This document shows, one piece after another, positions 4,420 to 16,817 of a DNA stretch of 64,000 nucleotides. The position numbers and the translations under genes are program-made. Every line of letters starts with the position of its first letter. Position 1 is the first letter of the stretch. Below the pieces are notes generated by a model. It saw nothing but the letters and a program-made list of their open reading frames with translations, did not search any database and was not told the origin of the DNA. The stretch comes from an uncultured Saprospiraceae bacterium (GTDB lineage: Bacteria; Bacteroidota; Bacteroidia; Chitinophagales; Saprospiraceae), in the NCBI GenBank assembly GCA_937928405.1, contig CALFWZ010000055.1:1-64000 (forward strand), written 5' to 3'.

Positions 4420-5817
4420 TTACTTCCTATAAGAAAAATCATACGCAATAATCACTACCAACGACTGAAATCGACTACTTACTTTGCCTACATTGGGATC
4501 ATCGAAAAGATTCTCAATATTGACTGCTCCTACGTCGACTCGAGGGCTGGTAGAATTATTAAAACCAAAGCCGTAATCTAGTCCTAGAGAAAATTTACTA
4601 TTCCAGATTTCGAGGACATTCCCCATAGAGATATGAGCGATAGATGGCGTAGAAGACAGGATTTGCAAAGCCACGTTTTCTTGTTGTTGCTGGCGTTGAT
4701 TGAAGTCGGTACGAAAGCCCCAGATCAAGGTAGATTTTTGACTAATTGGGGTTTGGCAACCAACGGCAATATTGACTACTTCCCGATTGCCGGTGCTGAT
4801 ATCAAAAGTGGTTTCTGAAGGATTTTCACTCAATCCGTTAAGGGGATCATCTACATCATTGATTAAGGTATAACTAGGGATGGCCGCAAAGTATTCCATA
4901 GAAAAAGAAATCCGGCTTTTGCCAATCGGAATATCTAATCCAAACCCAACCGACAGGGGTGTTCTATAATCGACCAATTCCGCATCGTCTAGATTGGTCG
5001 CAAGCGTCAAGCTGTCTGGAGAAAATATTTTCAGTTCATCTAATTCATAACTTGCTTTTCCCCATAGCTCTTTATAAGATGGAGTCGTCAAGGTTAATCC
5101 AAATTTAACTTCCCCTAGATTTAGAGACAATCCAAACTTGGTCACCATTCTACCATTTGTATTAAACGAATATTTGGTACGACTACGCCAACCGGCTAGT
5201 AATCCGTTGGTTGTTCCGTCAAAAATTTCTTGTCTTAAACCAAAGTCTGTTGATTCACTATGAAAGGTAACAAACTGCGTTATCCCAATTCCTAAGACGT
5301 CAAAAATTCTCCAACTGGCTCCAATACCCACCCAACGCTCGGAGAGTCTACGACTAAAGTCTAGATTGGCTTCGTAGATCTGATTTTCTGTATCCTTTAC
5401 AGAAAATAAAGTGCGGTAACGAAAACTGATATTGGATTTAAAACGAGTAAAGGAAGTAATGGCTACCCGAAAGTCATCGTATTTAAATGGATTGAAACCA
5501 ACAGCTGCTAGACCAGGCGCAAACCCCAATTCAGTATCTTTAATGCTGCGTCCCTGCCCAAAATAATTACGGGTTTTCAACGAAGCAAAGGAAGGCGTAA
5601 TAAAAGAAAGGGAAAGGGAAAAATCATCCTCTTCGCCCATCGCCATAGCGCCAGGATTGTAGAAAACAGCGGTTTCATCATCTGTACTCGCGATGACGGC
5701 TCCATTCAGTAGCAGCGCTCTACCCCCGTATTGATTGGTCCAGTAGTGGGCATCTACTTGGGCAACACACATGTTGAAGGACAAAAATGTCCATAAAAAA
5801 AGCATAAAATATTTCAT
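4420..5817 (-). CDS. FadL/OmpP1-like outer membrane transport protein
   Basis: A 465-aa protein with an N-terminal signal peptide (hydrophobic core after MKYFMLFLW, cleavage near CVAQ) and alternating beta-strand sequence through to a C-terminal aromatic strand. The segment just after the signal, with GGRALLLNGA and DDETAVFYNPGAMA, resembles the N-terminal hatch region of FadL/OmpP1 channels, which take up hydrophobic compounds such as fatty acids or hydrocarbons. The frame extends to an ATG at 5832, but the ATG at 5817 gives a cleaner signal peptide. It stands alone at the end of the leftward block. The substrate cannot be read from sequence; alkB at 54.4 kb is a possible functional partner only by inference. 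Confidence 0.75.
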   Translation of the reverse strand: MKYFMLFLWTFLSFNMCVAQVDAHYWTNQYGGRALLLNGAVIASTDDETAVFYNPGAMAMGEEDDFSLSLSFITPSFASLKTRNYFGQGRSIKDTELGFAPGLAAVGFNPFKYDDFRVAITSFTRFKSNISFRYRTLFSVKDTENQIYEANLDFSRRLSERWVGIGASWRIFDVLGIGITQFVTFHSESTDFGLRQEIFDGTTNGLLAGWRSRTKYSFNTNGRMVTKFGLSLNLGEVKFGLTLTTPSYKELWGKASYELDELKIFSPDSLTLATNLDDAELVDYRTPLSVGFGLDIPIGKSRISFSMEYFAAIPSYTLINDVDDPLNGLSENPSETTFDISTGNREVVNIAVGCQTPISQKSTLIWGFRTDFNQRQQQQENVALQILSSTPSIAHISMGNVLEIWNSKFSLGLDYGFGFNNSTSPRVDVGAVNIENLFDDPNVGKVSSRFQSLVVIIAYDFSYRK

Positions 5818-5909
5818 TCTTGCAAAATACAAATTATCGAAATACCTTATGCTTTTTTTTGCTTTTTAACCTAGACCATAGTCAACTATAAATGGTTTAT
5901 TCATCATTC

Positions 5910-6851
5910 CTAACTGACGGGCGTCTCCGTATTTTCTGGCTCTTTACCACCAAATATTTTTCGAATACCTGCAAAAAGTGCAATAACTCCAAACGCAATA
6001 AATTTCCAAAATTTAGCTAAGATAAGTCCCAATTTGGCTAGTATGCCAGCCTTCATCAGCACCTTACCAGCAATTAGACCACCGATTCCGTAGGCCGCTA
6101 CTTTGTCGATATCTGGATTAAAATCAGCATATCGATTCCCTTCCGTAAAATTGACGGCGGGCAAAATATTATCCATATTGGCATTCACCTGTGGTAAGAC
6201 TGGCATTTCGCCAATCACATTCATTTGCAAATATCCTTTCCGTCCCAAAACTCGGATATTATAATTGAGCGTATTGACCGCTGATCCATCGAAAGCGATA
6301 TCTTTTGCCCAATATAATTTCTTCTGATTCCCATCGTAATAAGGTTTAGATGCCCAAGAAATATTACTTACTGTAGGATAGCCCATTTCTTCCCGATAGG
6401 CATTGGCTTCTACTAAGTCTTCTCGCATACTCGCTAATAGATCGTCATAGTTAATATCCTTAGCATCACTGTCATCTACATAACCTTCTTCGGAATAGGT
6501 AATATTGATAACGTAAGAAGAATCAGACATCAGATCGGAGTCAGCGGGTAGCAACATTCCAAGGCTCTTGGCATCTCCTTCGCTAGGTGGATTTCCCCAT
6601 AATTCTGTCAGGACCATTTCACTATTTTCGCCATTTAGATATTTATAATCCGTCGGAACGGTAATCGTAGCGATACCATTTTTCAGTTTAATTTCTCCCG
6701 TTTCATAAGTCAATGTTTGCATTACACTGTCAACGTAGGCTTGGTACATCACCATCATTTCTGCTTCGCTAAGTGTATCAGCAGTGGCTTCTTGAGCCTG
6801 AGATGAAAATAGGCCGAAGGTTAGTAGTATAGTTAATAGAATGTTTTTCAT
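5910..6851 (-). CDS. DUF2167 family membrane protein
   Basis: A 313-aa exported protein with a signal peptide (MKNILLTILLTFGLFSSQAQ) and a periplasmic DUF2167 domain: GEIKLKNGIATITVP near 50-65, then LTELWGNPP and LGMLLPAD. Residues about 260-300 are a hydrophobic membrane segment with a short charged tail. The domain has no established biochemical role. The start codon is preceded without any gap by a long (AAATCAAC)n microsatellite on the coding strand, so there is no conventional ribosome binding site and expression may depend on repeat length. The gap of 93 nt to the FadL-like gene downstream leaves co-transcription possible. Confidence 0.8.
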   Translation of the reverse strand: MKNILLTILLTFGLFSSQAQEATADTLSEAEMMVMYQAYVDSVMQTLTYETGEIKLKNGIATITVPTDYKYLNGENSEMVLTELWGNPPSEGDAKSLGMLLPADSDLMSDSSYVINITYSEEGYVDDSDAKDINYDDLLASMREDLVEANAYREEMGYPTVSNISWASKPYYDGNQKKLYWAKDIAFDGSAVNTLNYNIRVLGRKGYLQMNVIGEMPVLPQVNANMDNILPAVNFTEGNRYADFNPDIDKVAAYGIGGLIAGKVLMKAGILAKLGLILAKFWKFIAFGVIALFAGIRKIFGGKEPENTETPVS

Positions 6852-6967
6852 GATTTGTTGATTTGTTGATTTGTTGATTTGTTGATTTGTTGATTTGTTG
6901 ATTTGTTGATTTGTTGATTTGTTGATTTGTTGATTTGTTGATTTGTTGATTTGTTGATTTGTTGATT
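6852..6967 (-). repeat. Octamer microsatellite (GATTTGTT)14.5 in a 5' leader
   Basis: Perfect tandem repetition of GATTTGTT on the plus strand, 116 nt or 14.5 units. On the coding strand of the downstream gene it reads as repeated AAATCAAC and abuts the ATG of the DUF2167 gene. Simple repeats of this length are prone to slippage, so copy number probably varies between cells. A further two near-copies occur at 7080-7095. Confidence 0.95.
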
Positions 6968-6982
6968 AAAATTTAAAAATTA

Positions 6983-7061
6983 TTTCGCGCAGATGGCGCA
7001 GAGGCGCAGCACTTGTTCCGAACTTGTTTTGGAAGGCCCTTTTGGGTCTATATCTTTTATC
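6983..7061 (+). repeat. Dispersed CGCAGAG-type repeat, copy 4
   Basis: Full-length form: TCGCGCAGATGGCGCAGAGG head, GCACTTGTTCCGAACTTG core and a TATATCTTTTATCTTG tail. Lies between the microsatellite and the LRR/BRCT gene. Confidence 0.75.
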
Positions 7062-7188
7062 TTGAATATTAAGCTCATGGTTGATTTGTTGATTCTGGTA
7101 GCAGGTATTTTCTAAAAATAGTATTTTTTTTGTTACTCTTTTTTAAAACATCAAAACTACATTAATAATTCCCGGAGGCTTAGAAAGA

Positions 7189-9504
7189 TTACACTAAAAT
7201 CTCACAATTTGGTAAAGCGGCTTTTATTTCTTCGGAAATTTCTAGAGGATATGGATCATTTTTGAGGCGATTATTCCGTAAGTCTAGCACTCGAAGTTGA
7301 GGCATTGCTTTAAGGGTGGAAGGGAATGTTTTGAAATTATTCATTTGCAAATTTAGGTGTGTCAATTGTTTCATCTTTTGAACAGATTTGGGAATGCTTC
7401 CCAAAAAATTAAAAGAAAGATCTATTTTTTTCAAATCTTTAAGATCTCCAAAGTTAGCAGGCAAAGACGTAAATTTACAATTGTGAAAATCAGCGGTTTC
7501 GATTAATGGTATATGGTCTACAATATCAGCTGGAAATTTTGCAGTCGTTCTCATATTATAAAACATGACTGATTTCAGATCCTTATCTCGCCAGTCTGTA
7601 AAGCCGAGGCCATCGCGATAATTCAGGTGCGTACCTTCCATCATTGCTTGCAAGGCAGCGGTTCGTTCAGAGCAGGGTTGGTGGAAATGATAAAGGACAT
7701 AACGCAATCCTTTTTTATACCGTTTGTGAAAAAGTAAGGATAATTTTGCTGCTGCTGCCCGGGAAGTAGTGCGCGCTAATTTTTCCAACTTCTTATTAAT
7801 TTCTTGTGCTTTCACCTTACCTACTAGTCCCGTAAAACGTTGTGCATCTGCGACGACAGGTAAATATTCTTTGGGCGCATGTTGGTCCAAGAGTTTTTTG
7901 GCGACACCTCTGACTTTTGCATCTGGACAAGACTTATAAATAACCAAGATCGTATCTATGAGTTCATCCGGTACGCCGCCGTTTTTGAGCATCTCCAAGC
8001 CAATCATTATATTGGCAGATTCTTCACTTTCTAATAAAGGAATCAGATTTTTGCTTACCTCCAACTCGCCAGCACTTACAGCTGCTTCAATAAACCCCGG
8101 AGCATCGGATTTGAAGCGTTCATAAAGATCAGATTCAGCAATGATTTTAAATTGGCCTCCTTGTAATTCTTCATAATTTCGAGGATTTTTTCCAATCACT
8201 ACGTGCGTTACTTGATCAGAAAATTTGAAAGCCAAGGGGATTTTTAAAATGCTTAGCTTTTCTTTGATCTCTGTTTTCTTGCGTCCAGGAGTACCTGCAA
8301 TGTAAAGGAGAGCATCACTGTCGAGCGTGTCCATATTTTTCTCTTTACTACTTATCTCTTGAATCTGTTGTTGTAGAATAGTCCGCAAATCTATATGACT
8401 CACGTTCATCAAAGTAAGCAAATCATCTATTGGAAAAACAGGTAAATCCTTTAGCCTTTTGACTTTTGTAATCAATCGAAAATATCGTTCTTTTTCTGGT
8501 TGTTTGATTTTTGATTTACCAAGGGCAGCACCGATACTCAATACCGTTTCGAGTGGTAACAAGAAAATTTTATAATCATTAATTCGATCTTCGTAGCCTT
8601 CATAATTTGTAAATTTAGGCCGTGACAAAATAGGCAATTGTTTTTTAGAAAGTAATTGGTTTGGCGACTCTATATAGTGATCTCCCATAAAAAGAGATTT
8701 TAGTTTGGGCAAACTATGAATAAAAGATAAGTCATCAAATACCTTTCCTTTTCCGTTTATTCGCAGCTCGCGCAATTTGTCCAACCTACTCCAATCTGAA
8801 GGAATTTCCATATTGGGATGTACGTCCAAAATCAGATTTTCGACTCCTTTAAATTTAAGAACAAACGTTGGAAACGAAGCAGCAGTCCATCCAGATTTAA
8901 GCACTACTCTTCTAAACGGTCGAGCAAAAACATAATCGGGCAATTGAGTGGTTTCTGGGCTATGAATGATCAAATCATGGAAAGGACGAGCAGGGTAATT
9001 TTCAAAAACTTTTTCTAAATAGATAGGCAACTCATCTGGCATCAATACCGGAATAGTAAGATAGCCATTACGATTGGAATACCTCTCTAGAAAAGTTTGA
9101 AATATTCTTTGACGATCTGGATGGGTTCCATCATCTACTTTTAAGAATTCAAAAAAAGAAGTGCCCGAGCGACAAAAATCAGTGTATAGAATATCGGCTA
9201 CTAGAGATCGTTCAAAGTTGGATTGAAAATAATGTTCATAAACTTTCTGATTATTTCTATTGACAGATTCTTTGATTTTTCGAATTTGCTGATCGGGTGT
9301 TTTCGGTGTCAAAAATTCGATCACTTCGTTCGCTAATATTTCATTTTTAGTCGTCAAAGCAATCGTCATCAACGGGCCAATAAATCGCCGATTAAATGAA
9401 CTATTTTTTAGCATTTCCAGTACCAAAGCATCATTCGGCCCTGGACCACTATAAATTAATTCTAGTATTTTTTCTTCAATATTCTCTTGTTCTAGCGGGT
9501 TCAT
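7189..9504 (-). CDS. LRR protein with internal BRCT-like domain
   Basis: A 771-aa, apparently cytosolic protein without signal peptide. Helical, HEAT-like sequence fills about 1-170. A short leucine-rich region lies at about 215-280 (ENLILDVHP, LRELRING, LKSLFMGD). A BRCT-like module spans about 396-466: DALLYIAGTPGRKK, then THVVIG. Helical repeats follow (470-640), and canonical LRRs close the protein (655-765: LKKIDLSFNFLGSIPKS, LTHLNLQMNNFKTFPS, LRVLDLRNNRL). No catalytic motif is visible, which suggests a scaffold or sensor. It lies 55 nt downstream of the MoxR ATPase on the same strand and is the last gene of that operon. The BRCT call rests on pattern only; the late conserved Trp of BRCT domains is not obvious. 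Confidence 0.7.
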   Translation of the reverse strand: MNPLEQENIEEKILELIYSGPGPNDALVLEMLKNSSFNRRFIGPLMTIALTTKNEILANEVIEFLTPKTPDQQIRKIKESVNRNNQKVYEHYFQSNFERSLVADILYTDFCRSGTSFFEFLKVDDGTHPDRQRIFQTFLERYSNRNGYLTIPVLMPDELPIYLEKVFENYPARPFHDLIIHSPETTQLPDYVFARPFRRVVLKSGWTAASFPTFVLKFKGVENLILDVHPNMEIPSDWSRLDKLRELRINGKGKVFDDLSFIHSLPKLKSLFMGDHYIESPNQLLSKKQLPILSRPKFTNYEGYEDRINDYKIFLLPLETVLSIGAALGKSKIKQPEKERYFRLITKVKRLKDLPVFPIDDLLTLMNVSHIDLRTILQQQIQEISSKEKNMDTLDSDALLYIAGTPGRKKTEIKEKLSILKIPLAFKFSDQVTHVVIGKNPRNYEELQGGQFKIIAESDLYERFKSDAPGFIEAAVSAGELEVSKNLIPLLESEESANIMIGLEMLKNGGVPDELIDTILVIYKSCPDAKVRGVAKKLLDQHAPKEYLPVVADAQRFTGLVGKVKAQEINKKLEKLARTTSRAAAAKLSLLFHKRYKKGLRYVLYHFHQPCSERTAALQAMMEGTHLNYRDGLGFTDWRDKDLKSVMFYNMRTTAKFPADIVDHIPLIETADFHNCKFTSLPANFGDLKDLKKIDLSFNFLGSIPKSVQKMKQLTHLNLQMNNFKTFPSTLKAMPQLRVLDLRNNRLKNDPYPLEISEEIKAALPNCEILV

Positions 9505-9559
9505 CTTTTATTAAAATAAATGAAGGAATTGTTCTGCAATTTTTTCTCTAAGCGTTAAT

Positions 9560-10672
9560 TTACATTTTATTTAATAACAACATCGCTACTTCGGGGTCGG
9601 TCATCACGCCCTTTAAAGCAGTATTTTCGGAACTCACTAAATCTTGTAATAAGGTTAAACGTAAGTCATTAGGAATGATATCCATTTTAATAAAAGCCTG
9701 AATATTTTTTATCTCATCTTTATTCGGTCTGATATTATTCAATGTCAAATAATTGACCATTCGGGTACAGAGTGTAGCAATAATATCTACTCGCAGTACT
9801 TCCTGTTGTACGATGGCCCGAAGCGGCTTATAGACACGATTCTCGAAGTTTTTCGTTTTTAGAATTTCTTCGGAGGTGACCAGTTCAGAAAGATTTTGTT
9901 GAACAAAAGAAATAAAAGAAGCAACGGTTGCTTCATCTAAGCAAGAAGAGCCCATCATCTGAATGAGTGGTAATTCGGCATTAAAATCTTTGATACTTTC
10001 AATGCTTTGAAAAAATTGCACCAGCGAGCGCGGTGTCGTTCGTTGTCCTTGCGCTATTTCTGGATAGGTTAAAACAAAGTTGATGCAGCGGGAATCTACG
10101 CCATTTTTTTCTGCCCAAACCGCCCATGCTTTGGGGTCAAAGTTCATGGTGATGTGCATCATTCGGGTAAGCATTGCGTTGTCCATTGGCGTAACGGAAT
10201 AGTCTCCCCCATCTGGATTAGCCGTAAGGACGATTTGCCAAAGGGGCGGAAGCTTCCAACTAACCAATTCATAATTTTGTAGTAGCTGCATAATTCCTCG
10301 CAAGATCCGATCATCGGCTCGATTGACATCGTCAATTAAAAGGATGCCTGGGCCTTCACTCGTCGGAACCCAGTCAGGACTACTAAAAACTGTTTTCCCG
10401 TTTTCAATGGCAGGCATTCCAACGAGGTCTCCCATTTCTTCAAATTGTGCAGGCGCGATATATGCCCATTGGTATCCTTTGGCTTCTGCAATTTGTTGGA
10501 CCATTTCTGTTTTACCAATTCCGTGGGTTCCCCAAATGCAGATAGGTGATTTTTTATGTCCTCTTTTTTCGGAGTTGATATTGGTGGTAATGATATGTTC
10601 GGTAAACTTTTGTACTTCGGTGGCATTGGAGGTGACGCCGTAGAATACGTAGTTGTGTTTTTGATTTGACAT
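9560..10672 (-). CDS. MoxR-type AAA+ ATPase
   Basis: A 370-aa AAA+ protein with Walker A GTHGIGKT (48-55), Walker B LLIDD (111-115) followed by NRA, and a sensor-1 region with IVLTANPDGG. The layout matches MoxR-like ATPases, which act as chaperones or remodelling machines for partner proteins bearing VWA domains. The partner is plausibly the VWA-like protein encoded immediately upstream (11150-12406), and the LRR/BRCT protein downstream a third component. The pair of an AAA+ ATPase with a DUF2201-type metallopeptidase/VWA protein is a recurrent bacterial association. The 477-nt gap upstream is filled with four dispersed repeats. Confidence 0.88.
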   Translation of the reverse strand: MSNQKHNYVFYGVTSNATEVQKFTEHIITTNINSEKRGHKKSPICIWGTHGIGKTEMVQQIAEAKGYQWAYIAPAQFEEMGDLVGMPAIENGKTVFSSPDWVPTSEGPGILLIDDVNRADDRILRGIMQLLQNYELVSWKLPPLWQIVLTANPDGGDYSVTPMDNAMLTRMMHITMNFDPKAWAVWAEKNGVDSRCINFVLTYPEIAQGQRTTPRSLVQFFQSIESIKDFNAELPLIQMMGSSCLDEATVASFISFVQQNLSELVTSEEILKTKNFENRVYKPLRAIVQQEVLRVDIIATLCTRMVNYLTLNNIRPNKDEIKNIQAFIKMDIIPNDLRLTLLQDLVSSENTALKGVMTDPEVAMLLLNKM

Positions 10673-10702
10673 TTTTTTATTTTGAGATATTTTATTGTGT
10701 TT

Positions 10703-10778
10703 TTGTCGCGCAGAGGCGCAGCACCTGTTCCAAACTTATTTCGGAAGACCTTCTATCGTGTATATCTTTTATCGTGTA
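10703..10778 (+). repeat. Dispersed CGCAGAG-type repeat, copy 5
   Basis: TCGCGCAGAGGCGCAGCACC head, TGTTCCAAACTTATTTCGGA core and TATCGTGTATATCTTTTATC tail. First of four copies filling the gap between the MoxR and VWA genes. Confidence 0.8.
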
Positions 10779-10830
10779 ATAGTTTTCATTTTTAGAGGTT
10801 TTTAATTTGTTGTTTTATTGTGAAATATTT

Positions 10831-10912
10831 TGTCGCGCAGGACTTGTTCCGAACTTGTTTCAGAAGACCTTCTATCGTGTAACTCTTCTAACTTGTATAT
10901 CTTTTATCGTGT
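10831..10912 (+). repeat. Dispersed CGCAGAG-type repeat, copy 6
   Basis: Head shortened to TCGCGCAGGA, then TTGTTCCGAACTTG, AGAAGACCTTCTATCGTG and a duplicated tail (AACTCTTCTAACTTG before TATATCTTTTATCGTG). Confidence 0.8.
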
Positions 10913-10938
10913 TTTTTCATCTTACAAAATACTTTTTA

Positions 10939-10996
10939 TTTCTCGCAGAGGACGCAGAGGCGCAGAGATTTTTATCGTGTATATTTTTTATCGTGT
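10939..10996 (+). repeat. Dispersed CGCAGAG-type repeat, copy 7
   Basis: CTCGCAGAGGACGCAGAGG head with a third CGCAGAG unit, followed directly by the tail TTATCGTGTATATTTTTTAT. The central TGTTCCGAA segment is absent, as in copy 1. Confidence 0.8.
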
Positions 10997-10999
10997 TTT

Positions 11000-11089
11000 T
11001 TTTCGCGCAGAGGCGCAGCACCTGTTCCGAACTTGACTCGGAAGACCTTCTATCGTGTAACTCTTCTAACCTGTATATTCTTTTCATTA
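11000..11089 (+). repeat. Dispersed CGCAGAG-type repeat, copy 8
   Basis: Full-length copy containing CGCGCAGAGGCGCAGCACC and TGTTCCGAACTTGACTCGGA; this core is nearly identical to copy 9, 3.2 kb away. TTCCGA and TCGGAA within the core can form a six-base-pair stem with a seven-base loop. Confidence 0.82.
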
Positions 11090-11149
11090 TGGTTTTACGA
11101 TCGAGGGCATTATTAATTATTCATTAGAAACAAAGCCTGCGCGCTGCCC

Positions 11150-12406
11150 TTAAGCGATTTTTAGTTTTTTCCCTGGCAGTTCTTCCCAGATTTTATCTTC
11201 GGTTCTTATGCCATTAGAAGAGATAATCCAGAGAACTGGGAACCGTGGAAGATTTTGGGGTGCTGGTGCATAACCATCTGTAAAGTAGATGAGTGCGTCG
11301 GGGCGATATTCTTGGTTTCCGTAGATCATGGGTGCTTCGAAGGAAGTGCCTCCTCGCCCATGTACTTCTACGGGAGGAGTGCCTTTATAGTTGTATGTTT
11401 TGTGGATATGGGTATCGCATTCCACAATTTGGATTTCGGCGCCTTGTCGCCAGATAAAATATATTTCGGAAAAAAATTCTAATAGTTCTTCTTGCTGAAT
11501 ACTACCTGAGGTGTCGATGGCTACTAAGAGTTTATTTCGACGTTTTATTTTTATACCTGGAACGGTGCCATAACGTCTGGATGGTCGTCGGATGGTATTT
11601 TTAATATAGGAGCTATTACTCGACGCGGCAAATAATCGCAGGACACGTCGCCAGTTAAACTTGGGTTCCATGTCTTTAAGAATCTCTGCTAATTTTTCGG
11701 CCAATCTAGCAGGGAGATTTCCATAATTTCGGTATTTGTGTTTGACACGTTCGACAGTTTGCTTGATGATCCGATTGGCTTGATATTCGGCGATTTTTCT
11801 TTCTCCTTCGCTCATCTTTTCAAATTCTTCCCAGAATTTATGACGTTGTAGTGCCTCATTTTCTCCATCCAATAAATCTTTAATTCTCAATTGGCTAGAT
11901 CCATTTTTTCCATCCGATCCCAATTTATTGACGGCAGCTTCAAAACTCATTTTCGGTTTCTGCTTCATGGTTTTATCCAACTGTCGATAATAATACCCAA
12001 CGTCTTTATCTCGCTCTAAAGTAATTCCATACATTGGTTGAAGGTAGTCGAAATTTTCCAAGACGATTCCGCCCGTCGGTAGCTGTGCCTTCGCAATATA
12101 TTGATTCACTACCAAATCTGCTGCAATATTAAAAAGGGTTTTATTGGGATAATTTTTCATGATAAATAAATGCTTCAGTACGATGTGTAGCATTTCGTGT
12201 TTGATCAATCCATAGCGATGTTCTTCAGATAGTTTACTCCAAAAATCCGCATTGACAATCAGTTTTATGTTTTGTCGATTCATGAGTGCGACGGCGGCGG
12301 TATCAGTTTGGGTAGAAATCTCCTTTGGTAGACCCATCATAAAATGTCCGTAGAAAGGTTCTGCGAGGAGGAGTTTGATACTGGTTTTAGAGATGGAGTC
12401 GAGCAT
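11150..12406 (-). CDS. Putative metallopeptidase with VWA-like domain (DUF2201)
   Basis: A 418-aa cytosolic protein with two parts. The N-terminal part carries HEMLH at 70-74 with a following His79 and the NIAADLVVNQYI segment (93-104), typical of the metallopeptidase-like half of DUF2201/COG3864 proteins. The C-terminal part is a VWA-like domain with a complete-looking metal site: DTSGS at 298-302, GRGGTSF (350-356) and FTDGY with Asp377. Proteins of this type pair with MoxR-like AAA+ ATPases, as here. It starts 53 nt after the DUF4240 gene, and that gap holds an octamer-periodic CAAC tract. A long repeat-filled gap separates it from the MoxR gene; I still infer one functional unit. Confidence 0.85.
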   Translation of the reverse strand: MLDSISKTSIKLLLAEPFYGHFMMGLPKEISTQTDTAAVALMNRQNIKLIVNADFWSKLSEEHRYGLIKHEMLHIVLKHLFIMKNYPNKTLFNIAADLVVNQYIAKAQLPTGGIVLENFDYLQPMYGITLERDKDVGYYYRQLDKTMKQKPKMSFEAAVNKLGSDGKNGSSQLRIKDLLDGENEALQRHKFWEEFEKMSEGERKIAEYQANRIIKQTVERVKHKYRNYGNLPARLAEKLAEILKDMEPKFNWRRVLRLFAASSNSSYIKNTIRRPSRRYGTVPGIKIKRRNKLLVAIDTSGSIQQEELLEFFSEIYFIWRQGAEIQIVECDTHIHKTYNYKGTPPVEVHGRGGTSFEAPMIYGNQEYRPDALIYFTDGYAPAPQNLPRFPVLWIISSNGIRTEDKIWEELPGKKLKIA

Positions 12407-12408
12407 AT

Positions 12409-12452
12409 GTTATTGTTGAAATGTTGAAACGCTGCGCTTGTTGAAGCGTTGA
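12409..12452 (-). repeat. Octamer-periodic TCAAC tract in VWA gene leader
   Basis: On the coding strand AATTCAAC, GCTTCAAC, an interrupting AAGCGCAGC, then GTTTCAAC and ATTTCAAC precede the VWA start codon. The units share TCAAC with the AAATCAAC microsatellite upstream of the DUF2167 gene but are diverged from one another. Confidence 0.6.
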
Positions 12453-12459
12453 ATTTATT

Positions 12460-13032
12460 CTATATCCATAACGTATCAAATAATTTTGGGCAGATTGCTT
12501 TCATTGTTTCTGGGTTTTCCTCTTCCCAATTAAATTCAATTGAAGGATAATTTCCTTCTCTTGCTTTGGAGTTATCATAATCAATATAATCGTAGAGATT
12601 TTTTCCAGTTTTTCTTTCGAATGCTTTAAGTGCAACGTACCAAAACCATTCAAATTCATACTCATCTTTATCCGCAGAAACTTCGTTTATCAAAGTATCA
12701 GGATTCTCTTTTGCCTGGAAGTACGTTTCTCTTCCTCTTGAAATTATCCAATTCCGAAAATATTCAAACCCGTCATCCGAACATCCACCGTTCATGATAT
12801 ATCCGGCGCACCACATTTCAGGTGTATAAGTATCGTAAAGTAATTTATCTGTTCTCAACCTGAAACCGATCATCTCTTTGGGAGATAATTTAATTATTTC
12901 GTTGACTAATTTTTCTTCTTGTTCATATTCATCTTCGATATCCTCCAATGATTTTGACACTATGCCCCAAAATTTTTCTTCATTTAGTAATTCAGCGCTA
13001 TTTTCAAGGTTTGAGATATCAATTTGTTCCAT
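12460..13032 (-). CDS. DUF4240 domain protein
   Basis: A 190-aa acidic cytosolic protein. The family pattern is clear: NEEKFWGIV near the N-terminus, GYIMNGGCSDDGFEYFRNW in the middle with a conserved Cys-Ser-Asp-Asp, then FQAKENPDTLI. The function of DUF4240 is unknown; members often appear in accessory operons and near nucleic-acid or stress-response genes. It is the first gene of the leftward operon with the VWA protein 53 nt downstream. The SPFH gene upstream ends in its own terminator, so transcription of this operon probably starts between 13033 and 13148. Confidence 0.8.
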   Translation of the reverse strand: MEQIDISNLENSAELLNEEKFWGIVSKSLEDIEDEYEQEEKLVNEIIKLSPKEMIGFRLRTDKLLYDTYTPEMWCAGYIMNGGCSDDGFEYFRNWIISRGRETYFQAKENPDTLINEVSADKDEYEFEWFWYVALKAFERKTGKNLYDYIDYDNSKAREGNYPSIEFNWEEENPETMKAICPKLFDTLWI

Positions 13033-13148
13033 CTTTTATAATTTTATAATTAATACAGCTTAAAAATGTGGCATAAATAACAACCGCAAGATAGTGCAAT
13101 TATTTCAATAAATAAACAAATTAGTTATTTTATTTAAAATAATAATCA

Positions 13149-13186
13149 AAAAAGTGTCATTAAGCAATAATTACCTAATGACACTC
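13149..13186 (-). terminator. Terminator of the SPFH gene
   Basis: AGTGTCATTA (13153-13162) pairs perfectly with TAATGACACT (13176-13185). On the minus strand the stem is followed by a run of T. It separates the SPFH gene from the DUF4240 operon. Confidence 0.85.
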
Positions 13187-13219
13187 TCTTTTTATACGCA
13201 CTTAATAAATCATGCTTTT

Positions 13220-14080
13220 CTATGCACCACCCGCTTCGATGATGGGCTGTGTACCTTGTTCGCTACAAAGTACGACTAGTAAGTTGGTGACTAGCTTACG
13301 TTTATCTTCTGGTGTAAAAGAAACGATCTCTTTGGTTTCTAATTGGTTGATGGCCATTTCGACCATTCCAACGGCACCTTCTACGATTTCGGTACGAGCG
13401 GAGATGATCGCACTCGCCTGCTGACGTTGGAGCATCGCAGCGGCAATTTCTCTAGCGTAGCTCAGGTGATTGATTCGGCTCTCCATGATTTCGATGCCTG
13501 CTTGATCGAGTTTTTCTTGGATTTCAATTTTAAGATTTTCTGCTACTTCTTCGGTATGGGTAATGAGCGAGTGTGCCCCTTCACTAGCCTCGTAAGGATA
13601 TTTCATGGCCAATCCTCGGAGAGCAGCTACACTCTGACGTGTTAGGAATTTTCCGAAATCTTCTACATCAAAATAAGCAGCATAAGTATCTTTGATCCGC
13701 CAAATAACAATGGCGCTGATTTGAATGGGATTTCCTTTTAAGTCGTTTACTTTGATCATTTCTGTCTCAAAGTCTTGTACTCTTAAACTGGCTCGCGTCC
13801 GCTTAAAGAAAGGAATGGTCCAACGGTAACCATCTTGCTTATCGGTACCGACATAGCTACCAAAAAACATCTGAATAATTGCTTCATTGGGTTCGATGAC
13901 ATAGAGTCCTCTAGATATAAAGAGTAGGACGAAAAAAGTAGGAATAATTAATGCTACATTTTCTGGTCGGTCGATGGCCGTTCCGCTATTAAAAATTTTG
14001 TTGGCCATAAACAATGCAAAAACGAGGAGTATCAATGCTACAATCCAACCGTTTATTGAAAACCCTTTTTTCTCTTTCAT
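13220..14080 (-). CDS. SPFH/band 7 domain membrane protein
   Basis: A 286-aa protein of the stomatin/prohibitin (SPFH) superfamily. Two N-terminal membrane segments (about 8-27 and 43-60) precede the band 7 domain, with YVIEPNEAIIQMFFGSYVGT marking its start and an arginine- and alanine-rich helix (EIAAAMLQRQQASAIISART) towards the end. Such proteins form oligomeric membrane scaffolds that organise microdomains or regulate membrane proteases; the partner is not evident. No NfeD gene is adjacent. It has its own terminator downstream and a 275-nt gap upstream holding repeat copy 9 and the caspase gene terminator, so it is probably monocistronic. Confidence 0.9.
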   Translation of the reverse strand: MKEKKGFSINGWIVALILLVFALFMANKIFNSGTAIDRPENVALIIPTFFVLLFISRGLYVIEPNEAIIQMFFGSYVGTDKQDGYRWTIPFFKRTRASLRVQDFETEMIKVNDLKGNPIQISAIVIWRIKDTYAAYFDVEDFGKFLTRQSVAALRGLAMKYPYEASEGAHSLITHTEEVAENLKIEIQEKLDQAGIEIMESRINHLSYAREIAAAMLQRQQASAIISARTEIVEGAVGMVEMAINQLETKEIVSFTPEDKRKLVTNLLVVLCSEQGTQPIIEAGGA

Positions 14081-14219
14081 GATATTTTTTTTTTAATTCT
14101 CTGGCCAAAATACAAATTAAAGATTTAGAGACAAAACTATCTCGACCAAGTGTCTATTTTTTAAGACTAGCGTTTAGTGATGTTGTCACCTTTTGTTTGC
14201 ATTGAGGGTATATTTATTT

Positions 14220-14286
14220 TTTTCGCGCAGAGGCGCAGCACCTGTTCCGAACTTGACTCGGAAGACCTGCTTACGTGTATATCTTT
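14220..14286 (+). repeat. Dispersed CGCAGAG-type repeat, copy 9
   Basis: Full head and core (CGCGCAGAGGCGCAGCACC, then TGTTCCGAACTTGACTCGGA), with a slightly diverged tail. This is the last copy; none was seen from 14.3 kb to the end of the window. Confidence 0.8.
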
Positions 14287-14291
14287 GTAAT

Positions 14292-14333
14292 AAAAAAACC
14301 TTTGCAGATTTTAGTTCCACAAAGGTTTTTCTT
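14292..14333 (-). terminator. Terminator of the MORN-caspase gene
   Basis: AAAAACCTTTG (14294-14304) pairs perfectly with CAAAGGTTTTT (14320-14330); read on the minus strand it ends in seven T. Confidence 0.88.
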
Positions 14334-14355
14334 TAAAGTGTTTTAATAAAACAAT

Positions 14356-16005
14356 TTAGTCTCTGACTACTGACACAGCCATGTTATCATCAAATTCTCC
14401 TAGCATCACTGGAGATTGACGTTTTCCAGTATAAGAACGAACGTTTTGATAAATATAACTATATAGTTCATCAATCGTTACGATTCCATCGGTGCTTAAG
14501 TCTGCTTCTCCACGTAGCCCGCGGATGAGAAAATGACTAAAAACACCCTGACGAAGTCCGCTAGACTCTAAAGAGGTTTCGGTTGATTTAGACGATAGGA
14601 TCAGTGCGGTTCCTGCTTTTGCTTGGGCTAAGGTTCGGTAATATTTGTCGAGCGTTTCTGATATTGTTCCTCGGCTTGCGTACATGCTACCAGAGTGACA
14701 AGCATCAGCAATACAAATTTTATATTTAGCAGGACTTTGTTCTAATAAAGCATTAATATCTTCGTGTAATAGTTTATTATTATAGCCGTCAAAATCAATT
14801 GGCAAAAAAGAACCGTTTAAACCGTGACCGGAAAAATACAACATCACCAAGTCGTTAGGGCCTGCTTTTGAAAAAACATCACTTACCGTAGACTTTATTT
14901 TTTCTAATGTCGCATCTTCATCGATTAATATTTTTATTTGATCATTATTGAGTGCTCCACCTTCCGGACTTTTTAGATGTGCAAAAATTCTATAAGCATC
15001 ATCATCGGTGTACTTGAGGGCAGGCATGTGTTCGTAGTTAGAAACACCTACTAAAACAGCCCATACTTTTGTATCTGTATTTTGTCGCACGGGAGCAGCC
15101 GAAGTGCTCGCAGTATTTACTGATTCTGTTTTACCGAGGTAGGTTCCATCTTGCCATAGGCCGTTCACCTTTGATCCATCCAACATAAAGAGTGTCCCGT
15201 TTCCATTAAAGCTTCCTCTACTCCATTGTCCTTCATATTTTTCGCCATTAGCGTAATAACAGATGCCTGTTCCTTCGGGAATTTCGTTTTTAAATGATCC
15301 AACATATTTAGCCGAACCACCTTCATAAATATAGGTACCTATTCCATTTTGGCAGTCTCCTTCGATACATCCTTCTTCTGCGGAATTAGCTGGTCTAAGA
15401 TTTAAGAACTCGCCATCCACCCATTCTCCGTTGGTTTGCGTACCGTCTAAATGATAGATCGTTCCTAGGCCGTGAGAATAATTATTTTTAAAACCACCTA
15501 CATATTTTTCACCATCAGGATAGTACCAAATACCTTCTCCATGCAGCTTTCCATTGTTAAATTGTCCTTCGTATTTACTCCCATCAATGTATAAGTAAAC
15601 CCCACGTCCCGCTTCACAATTTCCTTGTACACAACCCGACTGTACATCGAATGCCGTAGTAGTTTGGGTATTGCCTTTAGACGCAAATTCCAAAACTTGC
15701 CCTGCTGGATTGATTGGTTGTCCACGAAGCCACTCGCCTTCTCGACGAGTACCATCAGCATACGTTTTAATACCATAACCTTCTGGATATCGATGAACCC
15801 ACTGGCCACTATATTTCGTCCCATTGACATAGTCACAAGTTCCTTGTCCATGAATTTCACCATTTTTAAATTGACCTGTATATTTCGTACCACTTGGATA
15901 TAGAAAAGTACCTTTGCCATTAAAACAGTCTCCCTCTATGCATTGGGCATTTAAAGAGAATGAGTATAAGAAAAGAAGCACTGTGATAAAGGGGAATTTG
16001 TACAT
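14356..16005 (-). CDS. Secreted MORN-repeat caspase-family (C14) peptidase
   Basis: A 549-aa exported protein. A signal peptide (MYKFPFITVLLFLYSFSLNA) is followed by three tandem modules of about 90-95 residues, each opening with a Cys-x4-Cys element (CIEGDC, CVQGNC, CIEGDC) and carrying MORN repeats of the form YxGxFKNGxxHGxG. From about residue 313 comes a caspase-like peptidase: VWAVLVGVSNYEHMP start, catalytic His394 in YFSGHG and Cys436 in DACHSG. The calcium-like DLSTDGIVTIDEL element is common in bacterial members. An in-frame ATG at 16062 exists but the one at 16005 gives the proper signal peptide. The export signal makes it unlikely to be an effector of the nearby cytosolic MoxR operon. 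Confidence 0.88.
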   Translation of the reverse strand: MYKFPFITVLLFLYSFSLNAQCIEGDCFNGKGTFLYPSGTKYTGQFKNGEIHGQGTCDYVNGTKYSGQWVHRYPEGYGIKTYADGTRREGEWLRGQPINPAGQVLEFASKGNTQTTTAFDVQSGCVQGNCEAGRGVYLYIDGSKYEGQFNNGKLHGEGIWYYPDGEKYVGGFKNNYSHGLGTIYHLDGTQTNGEWVDGEFLNLRPANSAEEGCIEGDCQNGIGTYIYEGGSAKYVGSFKNEIPEGTGICYYANGEKYEGQWSRGSFNGNGTLFMLDGSKVNGLWQDGTYLGKTESVNTASTSAAPVRQNTDTKVWAVLVGVSNYEHMPALKYTDDDAYRIFAHLKSPEGGALNNDQIKILIDEDATLEKIKSTVSDVFSKAGPNDLVMLYFSGHGLNGSFLPIDFDGYNNKLLHEDINALLEQSPAKYKICIADACHSGSMYASRGTISETLDKYYRTLAQAKAGTALILSSKSTETSLESSGLRQGVFSHFLIRGLRGEADLSTDGIVTIDELYSYIYQNVRSYTGKRQSPVMLGEFDDNMAVSVVRD

Positions 16006-16118
16006 GGGTGTGATGATTTTAGTGATAAACTGATGGATATTTCCAGAACTTAGGAAATCCAATGGATACTACTGCAAAAACATTACCAATTTTTAATATA
16101 TGTTTACTTTCTTCGAAC

Positions 16119-16193: not shown

Positions 16194-16817
16194 ATGGTGT
16201 TCCAAGAAAGTGGATTGGTTTTTAATTTCCCGATAGATTGGAAAGTGATTAAATGGGATGAGCACCGTTTTTTCGGATATGTCAGTGGTAGAGGGTTTAA
16301 GGGAGTAGATTTTATGGCTTTACGCAATGAGGAATTGTATCTGATAGAAGTAAAAAATTACCGAAACCGTCGACCACAAGATGAACAACATCCTTTTGAC
16401 TTATTATTCGCGGAGTCGGATTTTTATGGTGAAATATTTTTACAAAAATTTGCGGACAGTTTTGCCTTGATTGAAATTATCAAAAAATATTATTTACGAA
16501 AACGCTTTTTTAATTGGTGGTCCCAACGAAATTATCCGGGGCTAAACATCTTAGCGCGGCTACCCTTTTTTCAAAAAAGAGATTTTATTTTTTGGACGCA
16601 AGCGGCACAGATTATCCATAATTATCCGGAAAAGGTTCAATTAGTATTATGGTTAGAACCAGGTCCAACAATACCGTCGGAAAAGTATACTGAATTGAAA
16701 GAAAAATTATATGCTTATTTTAAGAAAAATCCTATTTTGCCGGAAGGCGTAACTATCACAATCAATAATATGCATGATCAATTGCCTAATTTCAATATTG
16801 AAGTTGATGTTAAGTAA
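16194..16817 (+). CDS. Hypothetical protein with nuclease-like D-ExK motif
   Basis: A 207-aa cytosolic protein that I do not recognise as a named family. Residues about 31-57 read GRGFKGVDFMALRN and then LYLIEVKNYRNR, the Asp...Glu-x-Lys arrangement of PD-(D/E)xK restriction-endonuclease-like folds, here very near the N-terminus. The rest is rich in aromatic and basic residues with no membrane segment. It could be a nuclease or a nonenzymatic relative. It is a single gene, divergent from the MORN-caspase and 138 nt upstream of the mechanosensitive channel gene on the same strand. Confidence 0.6.
   Translation: MVFQESGLVFNFPIDWKVIKWDEHRFFGYVSGRGFKGVDFMALRNEELYLIEVKNYRNRRPQDEQHPFDLLFAESDFYGEIFLQKFADSFALIEIIKKYYLRKRFFNWWSQRNYPGLNILARLPFFQKRDFIFWTQAAQIIHNYPEKVQLVLWLEPGPTIPSEKYTELKEKLYAYFKKNPILPEGVTITINNMHDQLPNFNIEVDVK

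Follow-up and report, generated by a model that had tools for sequence, protein, structure and literature searches.

A MoxR ATPase, a metallopeptidase-VWA protein and a BRCT-HEAT-LRR protein form a recurrent three-gene unit in Bacteroidota and Gammaproteobacteria

The locus and its genes

The 64,000-nucleotide stretch of DNA analysed here (the window; contig CALFWZ010000055.1 of an uncultured Saprospiraceae bacterium, assembly GCA_937928405.1) belongs to a 7.07-Mb genome in 243 contigs. It carries four leftward genes for a DUF4240 protein, a protein in which a metallopeptidase domain is fused to a VWA-like domain (MP-VWA), a MoxR-type AAA+ ATPase, and a large protein in which a BRCT domain and a HEAT-like helical segment are combined with leucine-rich repeats (LRR) (Table 1). 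A first-pass annotation, made from the DNA letters alone, had proposed that the four genes form one system. Comparison with other genomes leads to a different division: the three-gene unit of MP-VWA, MoxR and the BRCT-HEAT-LRR protein holds, whereas the four-gene reading fails. The four open reading frames (ORFs) are intact and lie where that annotation had placed them, and the terminator that it had put upstream of them was borne out as a hairpin with a 20-pair stem, the longest of 16 hairpins in the region 5000-16000 (shuffles average 8.9).

Table 1 Positions of the genes, domains, motifs and other features of the locus in the window, and of one related protein
Feature	Position	Strand	Basis or remark
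DUF4240 protein, 190 aa	12460..13032	-	ORF and Pfam; first gene of the local operon, outside the recurrent module
MP-VWA, 418 aa, metallopeptidase domain fused to VWA-like domain	11150..12406	-	Core component
Gap with three copies of a dispersed repeat	10673..11149		Between MP-VWA and MoxR
MoxR-type AAA+ ATPase, 370 aa	9560..10672	-	Core component
LRR-BRCT-HEAT-LRR protein, 771 aa	7189..9504	-	Third component, proposed client adaptor
Terminator-like hairpin	13148..13190	-	Follows the Band 7 gene, precedes DUF4240
BRCT domain, residues about 396-470	8095..8319	-	Profile matches and orthologues
HEAT-like helical segment, residues about 471-560	7825..8094	-	Conserved with BRCT as one unit
C-terminal LRR, residues about 651-771	7192..7554	-	Best-conserved part of the 771-aa protein
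Metal site HExxHxxxxH of MP-VWA, residues 70-79	12170..12199	-	Alignment of 38 MP-VWA homologues
Metal-ion-dependent adhesion site (MIDAS) DxSxS of the VWA domain, residues 298-302	11501..11515	-	Same 38-row alignment
MoxR Walker A, GTHGIGKT, residues 48-55	10508..10531	-	Sequence motif
MoxR Walker B region, ILLIDDVNRA, residues 110-119	10316..10345	-	Sequence motif
WGR-TPR-LRR-BRCT protein, 1156 aa	L269:2424-5894 = L165:5320-8790		Flavobacterium limi

Recurrence of the three-gene unit

MoxR and MP-VWA form one unit. Among 150 genomes of the family, MP-VWA was matched in 54 and MoxR in 50, with exactly one MoxR match in each, and all 50 also match MP-VWA. One of them, G006, has its MoxR but counts for MP-VWA through a second VWA gene with a weaker match; the MP-VWA copy proper would be past a contig end. 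In a sample of 295 genomes of the class, the two proteins were found in the same five. The genes are adjacent in 28 of 49 family genomes; in G446, G377 and G382 they share a contig with 252-566 kb between them. The idea that the MoxR ATPase and the VWA protein belong together is thus supported both by shared recurrence and by co-occurrence across genomes. A second, distant MoxR and VWA pair is present in the genome of the window (G000:C71:21404-24819, L131) and also in G001, G002, G005 and G006, in the last on two contigs.

A scan of genome contigs yielded 294 MP-VWA relatives, the best 80 of which were used as loci. An MP-VWA ORF was found in 77 of these, several of which stop at a contig end. 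A MoxR gene lies within 8 kb in 36 of the 77 and a BRCT-HEAT ORF in 31; both are present in 26 loci and BRCT-HEAT only in five. Twelve of the 26 loci with the complete trio come from named cultures or species, namely Flammeovirga (2), Cellulophaga baltica, Xanthocytophaga flavus, Chitinophaga sp., Flavobacterium limi, Photobacterium (2), Ferrimonas (3) and Vibrio sp. LaRot3, and 14 from metagenome assemblies, two of which are members of the genus of the window. The gap between the MoxR and BRCT genes measures 1-5 bp in Cellulophaga, Xanthocytophaga, Chitinophaga, two Flammeovirga and one genus member. At the six gammaproteobacterial loci, one to three BRCT-HEAT genes for proteins of 930-952 aa are oriented divergently to MP-VWA-MoxR, and at five of the six they stand in two or three tandem copies. 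When the clusters of the 12 named cultures or species were compared together with their flanks, other genes were common to the closest relatives only, apart from scattered matches of 26-39 %, so that the trio is the sole common unit of these clusters. A record named Thalassovita sp. MAG, which is an alphaproteobacterial name (L223), encodes an MP-VWA 55 % identical to that of the window; this contig is possibly misassigned.

A similar picture was obtained at the level of whole genomes. A BRCT-HEAT profile of 11 rows (A3) was positive in 44 of the 150 genomes of the family. MP-VWA is present in 42 of these 44 and in 12 of the 106 others (Fisher p 8e-24, with no correction for tree or genome size) or, equivalently, BRCT-HEAT is present in 42 of the 54 genomes with MP-VWA and in two of the 96 without it. 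Counted by genus, MP-VWA occurs in 33 of 34 genera with BRCT-HEAT and in nine of 78 without. In the class sample, BRCT-HEAT was found in two of the 295 genomes, which both belong to the five that encode MoxR and MP-VWA. The first is the genome of the window; the second, G123, comes from another family and has two BRCT-HEAT ORFs beside its MoxR/MP-VWA pair. Outside the genus, a BRCT-HEAT gene lies within 4 kb of MP-VWA or MoxR in G410, G426, G391 and G429, where by a rough estimate about 0.25 would be expected. The samples overlap (L217 = G001, L263 = G005, L269 = G123, L224 = G410 and L227 = G426), and the counts are not additive. The linkage of the LRR/BRCT protein to MoxR and a VWA protein, which had been proposed from this one locus, is seen again in different genera, in a further family and in a further phylum, and the protein tracks the pair across genomes.

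Domain architecture of the three components

The BRCT-like module in the 771-aa protein had been a guess, and at the sequence level it was right. In the window copy, the Pfam BRCT model (PF00533) reaches 16.4 bits over residues 401-462, against a cut-off of 21.3. The direct orthologues in four of the six other genus members score over this cut-off (32.6, 31.5, 31.0 and 26.6 bits), as do seven of 30 third-component proteins, window included (23.5-28.0). A profile of the BRCT segment was compared with the PDB, and the best matches were the BRCT domains of NAD+ DNA ligase in entries 1l7b and 1dgs (E 6.8e-5 and 0.0045); the remaining four, at E values of at least 0.12, are tRNA-binding proteins and their fusions and look like chance. 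Profile comparison by hhalign with 17 BRCT domains from relatives (ligase BRCT) gave 94 % (E 1.5e-7), while two unrelated control profiles gave 0.1 and 0.4 %. The BRCT assignment is upheld by the orthologues together with these profile comparisons. The helical segment that follows was named HEAT by eye, and Pfam has no HEAT match at residues about 471-560. For the whole protein, Pfam reports LRR_8 at 1.7e-13 and, at E 0.1, LRR models, BRCT and, weakly, one transposase model; its best NCBIfam matches are LRR-only and far below the cut-offs.

The arms attached to the BRCT-HEAT unit vary. LRR are found on one side or on both, TPR arms are present in the BRCT-HEAT proteins of L237 and L251, and the F. 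limi protein, encoded near MoxR and MP-VWA, joins WGR, TPR, LRR and BRCT in one chain. Most genomes have one BRCT-HEAT protein, but G396 has matches spread over 19 contigs and G446 has 14 matching loci; some of these matches are partial or cover just the HEAT segment. Alongside these large expansions of BRCT-HEAT-LRR proteins, G396 and G446 each have one MoxR and one MP-VWA, which are unlinked.

MP-VWA is of the DUF2201 type. Both of its domains, the DUF2201_N metallopeptidase (PF13203; 5.2e-19, 69.3 bits, cut-off 23.2) and the DUF2201 VWA-like domain (PF09967; 1.6e-18, 67.5 bits, cut-off 26.4), match over the Pfam cut-offs. The metallopeptidase is N-terminal and the VWA-like match stops at residue 397 of 418, so that the VWA domain ends the protein. 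By sequence, MP-VWA had no match in the PDB at E 0.1. The joining of a HEMLH site to a VWA-like metal site in one protein was confirmed, with the catalytic and metal motifs intact. The metal ligands H70, H74, H79 and D97 are invariant in all 38 aligned homologues, as are the MIDAS residues D298, S300, S302 and D377; T354 is found in 36 of the 38. The catalytic residue Glu71, present in the window copy, is a glutamate in 31 and a glutamine in seven homologues. Copies with glutamine in place of the HExxH glutamate and with all metal ligands kept are those of L231, L234, L235, L240, L269, L275 and L290, which are possible peptidase-dead versions to judge from this motif. Judging by such variants, proteolysis may not be required in every case.

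The MoxR protein matches AAA_5 in Pfam (1.2e-10), and its closest solved relatives are the AAA domains of midasin. As had been noted before, the ATPase appears intact, with both a Walker A and a Walker B motif. Searches of NCBIfam and PADLOC with the four proteins of the locus returned nothing specific (best PADLOC match E 0.0059).

Genomic context within the genus

The genus sample comprises seven genomes (G000-G006). Where contigs allow it to be read, the gene order is caspase-MORN, Band 7, a variable slot, MP-VWA, MoxR, LRR-BRCT, an outer-membrane protein and ribosomal protein bS6, the last named by eye. A full or partial orthologue of the 771-aa protein was found in six of the seven genomes; it is absent from G003, which is 64 % complete. 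In G001, G002 and G006, a second LRR-BRCT protein of 930-931 aa is encoded between MoxR and the 771-aa protein. Gene spacing is uneven, as the MP-VWA/MoxR gap of 477 bp in the window measures 69 bp in G001 and 159 bp in G005. No plausible gene is present in the 477 bp, which hold one 106-aa ORF on the opposite strand. A dispersed repeat fills this gap, and further copies lie at 7004-7022 and 14233-14251; the window has five copies within three mismatches, against 0.01 expected in shuffles.

The variable slot is where the four-gene reading breaks down. The DUF4240 protein itself is clear (PF14024, E 3.8e-31), and in three genus members (G000, G001 and G004) DUF4240 adjoins MP-VWA. The protein in this slot in G001 is 54 % identical to that of the window; in G004 it is strongly diverged (33.5 bits) and followed by a 107-aa ORF; in G005 the slot holds a 173-aa ORF without a Pfam match. 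The slot is unreadable in G002 and G006, and the trio was not found in G003. A local DUF4240 profile was positive at one of the 80 MP-VWA loci, namely on G001's own contig. DUF4240, which is unmentioned in the open literature searched, was therefore rejected as a member of the system: adjacent within the genus only, and diverged or replaced even there, it is a local passenger.

Two genes upstream of DUF4240, at 14356-16062, lies a gene whose product combines MORN repeats with a caspase (C14) domain. It matches the PADLOC 'caspase' model at 5e-15 and an NCBIfam caspase model below the cut-off, and in G001, G004 and G005 it has kept its place next to Band 7 and the three genes. On the strand opposite to the caspase gene, at 16194-16817, a 207-aa protein is encoded that matches PADLOC HEC-02B (E 3e-12) and has no Pfam match.

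Selection on the components

Window genes were compared with those of genus members, with synonymous sites near saturation and four of 21 pairs without a dS value. The dN/dS ratio is about 0.01-0.03 for MoxR and 0.03-0.04 for MP-VWA. For the 771-aa protein it is about 0.07, computable in two of four pairs, for DUF4240 0.17 (one pair) and for the outer-membrane neighbour 0.06-0.07 (two of three pairs). For the 931-aa paralogue, a comparison between three members of the genus gave a dN/dS of 0.08-0.11. In terms of identity, LRR-BRCT (80-82 %) and this paralogue (72 %) stand against 92-99 % for MoxR and MP-VWA; a third component that evolves faster than the motor fits a recognition part. Within the 771-aa protein, the C-terminal LRR are 91 % identical on average and the other segments 76-85 %. 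A hypervariable LRR sensor was looked for through dN/dS and segment identities and rejected, as neither gave a sign of one and the C-terminal LRR are best conserved. The compared genes are under purifying selection, and the lack of any arms-race sign in this copy speaks against fast-evolving invader recognition by the LRR/BRCT protein, which the first-pass annotation had taken for the variable recognition or adaptor part.

Relatives in phages and plasmids

A pair of MoxR and a metallopeptidase-vWA protein has been described from jumbo phages, where it was proposed to take part in virion assembly (PMC7824862). Relatives of MP-VWA were found in 361 of 50,697 phage records and in 81 of 72,556 plasmid records; among the 15 matches listed of the 361, one is called a 'zincin-like protease fused to vWA domain' and one a 'metallopeptidase'. 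The BRCT-LRR protein of Photobacterium, searched against plasmids only, had no match among the 72,556 records.

Eighty loci were also taken from presumed viral contigs of IMG/VR, and MoxR is present in 73 of them. In ten loci (L297-L301, L303-L305, L307 and L308), the space between MoxR and MP-VWA measures 1.0-1.2 kb, and in L297, L298, L303, L305 and L307 an ORF of 361-378 aa was read in that space. The BRCT-HEAT profile gave weak matches in six of 79 viral-contig loci, a count that ran through 2, 5, 9, 8 and 6 over the profile rounds, the last being the one used. The BRCT and HEAT motifs of the L298 ORF were recognised by eye; Pfam found no BRCT in four such proteins scanned (L297, L298, L303 and L310). 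These ORFs may be short BRCT-HEAT proteins.

Proposed mechanism and alternative explanations

On balance, MP-VWA, MoxR and the BRCT-HEAT-LRR protein probably constitute a three-part, ATP-driven protein-remodelling machine, with DUF4240 as a local passenger. This interpretation starts from the recurrence, the co-occurrence, the conservation of motifs and the contrast in copy number that were observed; from these we infer the docking and adaptor roles. MoxR would act as a hexameric motor and MP-VWA as co-chaperone and platform, docked on the MoxR ring as NorD is on NorQ. The BRCT-HEAT unit would be the constant docking part of an adaptor, and its LRR (or TPR, WGR) arms would choose the client protein. 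The motor would pull or twist the client on MP-VWA, and cleavage would perhaps be confined to MP-VWA copies that retain the catalytic glutamate. In NorQD, a finger of the VWA protein enters the pore and the use of ATP twists the partner (PMC13036017). A broader proposal, put forward tentatively as somewhat doubtful, is that in Bacteroidota and Gammaproteobacteria a single MoxR/MP-VWA engine could work with BRCT-HEAT adaptors that form an expandable family and differ in exchangeable arms of LRR, TPR or WGR type. Some phages would perhaps have a reduced form of the machine, with a short BRCT-HEAT adaptor encoded between the two core genes. SCF ligases, which use F-box-LRR proteins, offer a parallel to such a reading of one motor with many adaptors.

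Several observations count against the three-part machine. Four genomes have MP-VWA and no MoxR match (G007, G033, G383 and G421), the MP-VWA entries of G383 and G421 being weak; BRCT-HEAT was not found by profile in 12 of the 54 MP-VWA genomes, and G369 and G441 have BRCT-HEAT without an MP-VWA match. Ten of the 36 loci with MP-VWA and MoxR have no BRCT-HEAT gene within 8 kb, and in many genomes the BRCT-HEAT protein is located elsewhere. BRCT itself scores below the Pfam cut-off in three of the 30 third-component proteins and has no match at the thresholds used in 20. Among the 44 genomes counted for BRCT-HEAT, some were included on hits near 1e-5 or on matches confined to the HEAT segment, and the co-occurrence may stem partly from shared ancestry and genome size. 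MoxR and MP-VWA are apart in 21 of the 49 genomes, a figure confounded by contig breaks in drafts, so that their linkage is loose. This last finding, like the passenger status of DUF4240, would also be expected if the four genes simply lay side by side and shared no function. Such an explanation is very improbable; as far as the core trio goes, it is contradicted by the co-occurrence figures and by the finding of the three genes together in different phyla amid unrelated flanking genes.

The remaining alternatives accept the trio as a unit and assign it another task. It could be a ternary conflict (defence) system of the MoxR-vWA type, in which the BRCT/LRR protein acts as invader sensor and sets free the MP-VWA metallopeptidase as effector. 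The combination of MoxR, vWA and a third component is the plan of predicted conflict systems, the vWA protein of which sometimes bears peptidases (PMC7159879, PMC8195603). The neighbours matching caspase and HEC-02B models and the faster evolution of the LRR-BRCT protein and its 931-aa paralogue are also in line with defence. However, the published effectors are C-terminal to vWA, whereas here the peptidase is N-terminal and VWA comes last; Pfam at E 0.1 names no published third component in the window proteins, the four proteins have no PADLOC match better than the one given above, and the locus keeps its position within the genus. The dN/dS values of 0.01-0.17, where computable, the strong conservation of the C-terminal LRR and the replacement of the catalytic glutamate in seven of 38 copies also argue against it, and we consider a defence role unlikely. 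That same replacement counts against a DNA-directed device for clearing proteins, in which BRCT (and WGR) would bring the machine to DNA and the zincin and motor would remove stuck proteins. BRCT and WGR are common in DNA-repair proteins, the BRCT domain is closest to that of NAD+ DNA ligase, and WGR is fused in the F. limi protein; WGR was found by Pfam in just one of the 30 third-component proteins, however, and this explanation is improbable. The first-pass suggestion of 'DNA damage or invader sensing' is a guess from the BRCT domains and that one WGR domain. The metal ligands of MP-VWA, invariant where the catalytic glutamate is not, would suit a chaperone for metal or cofactor insertion resembling NorQD/CbbQO, with MP-VWA delivering the metal and the BRCT-LRR protein as a scaffold for one client complex; NorQD puts iron into its client (PMC13036017). 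Against this, the 12 clusters compared have no recurrent gene other than the trio, and multiplied BRCT-HEAT proteins suit many clients better than one, so that an insertion chaperone is an equally improbable explanation.

Significance and comparison with known systems

Three neighbouring genes in quite different bacteria appear to encode a remodelling machine and the recognition proteins that steer it. Most MoxR-VWA machines known so far either have a dedicated client or are predicted conflict systems. If the proposal is true, a constant BRCT-HEAT part with changing arms would be a general mechanism of client choice and would offer a direct route to the clients. It would also mean that bacterial BRCT domains have a role outside DNA ligase and would suggest what large LRR families of Bacteroidota do, and the MoxR/MP-VWA pair carried by phages would become testable through the adaptor.

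No description of a BRCT-HEAT-LRR partner of MoxR-vWA was found in the open papers searched, as far as their available text goes; in the parts of PMC7159879, PMC7824862, PMC12839542, PMC8195603 and PMC11674859 at hand, no BRCT-LRR partner is described, and the open literature naming DUF2201, COG3864 or their Pfam numbers contained, in its available portions, nothing on this system. The jumbo-phage pair is made up of the same proteins, MoxR and a vWA protein whose metallopeptidase domain is N-terminal. Its proposed task is virion assembly and, in the text available, no BRCT, HEAT or LRR partner is named (PMC7824862), whereas the genes described here are cellular and include a third component.

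The ternary conflict systems likewise have a core of MoxR and vWA with a variable third protein (PMC7159879, PMC8195603). The third parts published are VMAP, iSTAND, FtsH and beta-propeller proteins (PMC7159879) and, in addition, iSTAND2 and TERNS3, with effectors typically placed after vWA (PMC8195603). Pfam at E 0.1 does not name VMAP, iSTAND, FtsH, beta-propeller or TERNS3 in the third protein of the window, although Pfam may not model each kind. The trio differs from these systems in its BRCT-HEAT-LRR third protein, in having no C-terminal effector on vWA and in showing no sign of rapid diversification in the copy tested. Because of the other third part and the missing C-terminal effector, we do not count it among the ternary conflict systems, though it shares their plan.

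The closest solved relatives of the BRCT domain are those of NAD+ DNA ligase (PDB 1l7b and 1dgs); here the domain is joined to HEAT-like helices and LRR and is not part of a ligase. As regards the motor, NorQ-NorD and CbbQ-CbbO combine a MoxR ring with a VWA cofactor that docks on it, as is proposed here (PMC13036017). RavA-ViaA has the same arrangement of a MoxR ring and a docking VWA cofactor. We know of no metallopeptidase domain and no BRCT-LRR family in NorQ-NorD, CbbQ-CbbO or RavA-ViaA. All three have dedicated clients, unlike the adaptor family proposed for the MoxR/MP-VWA machine.

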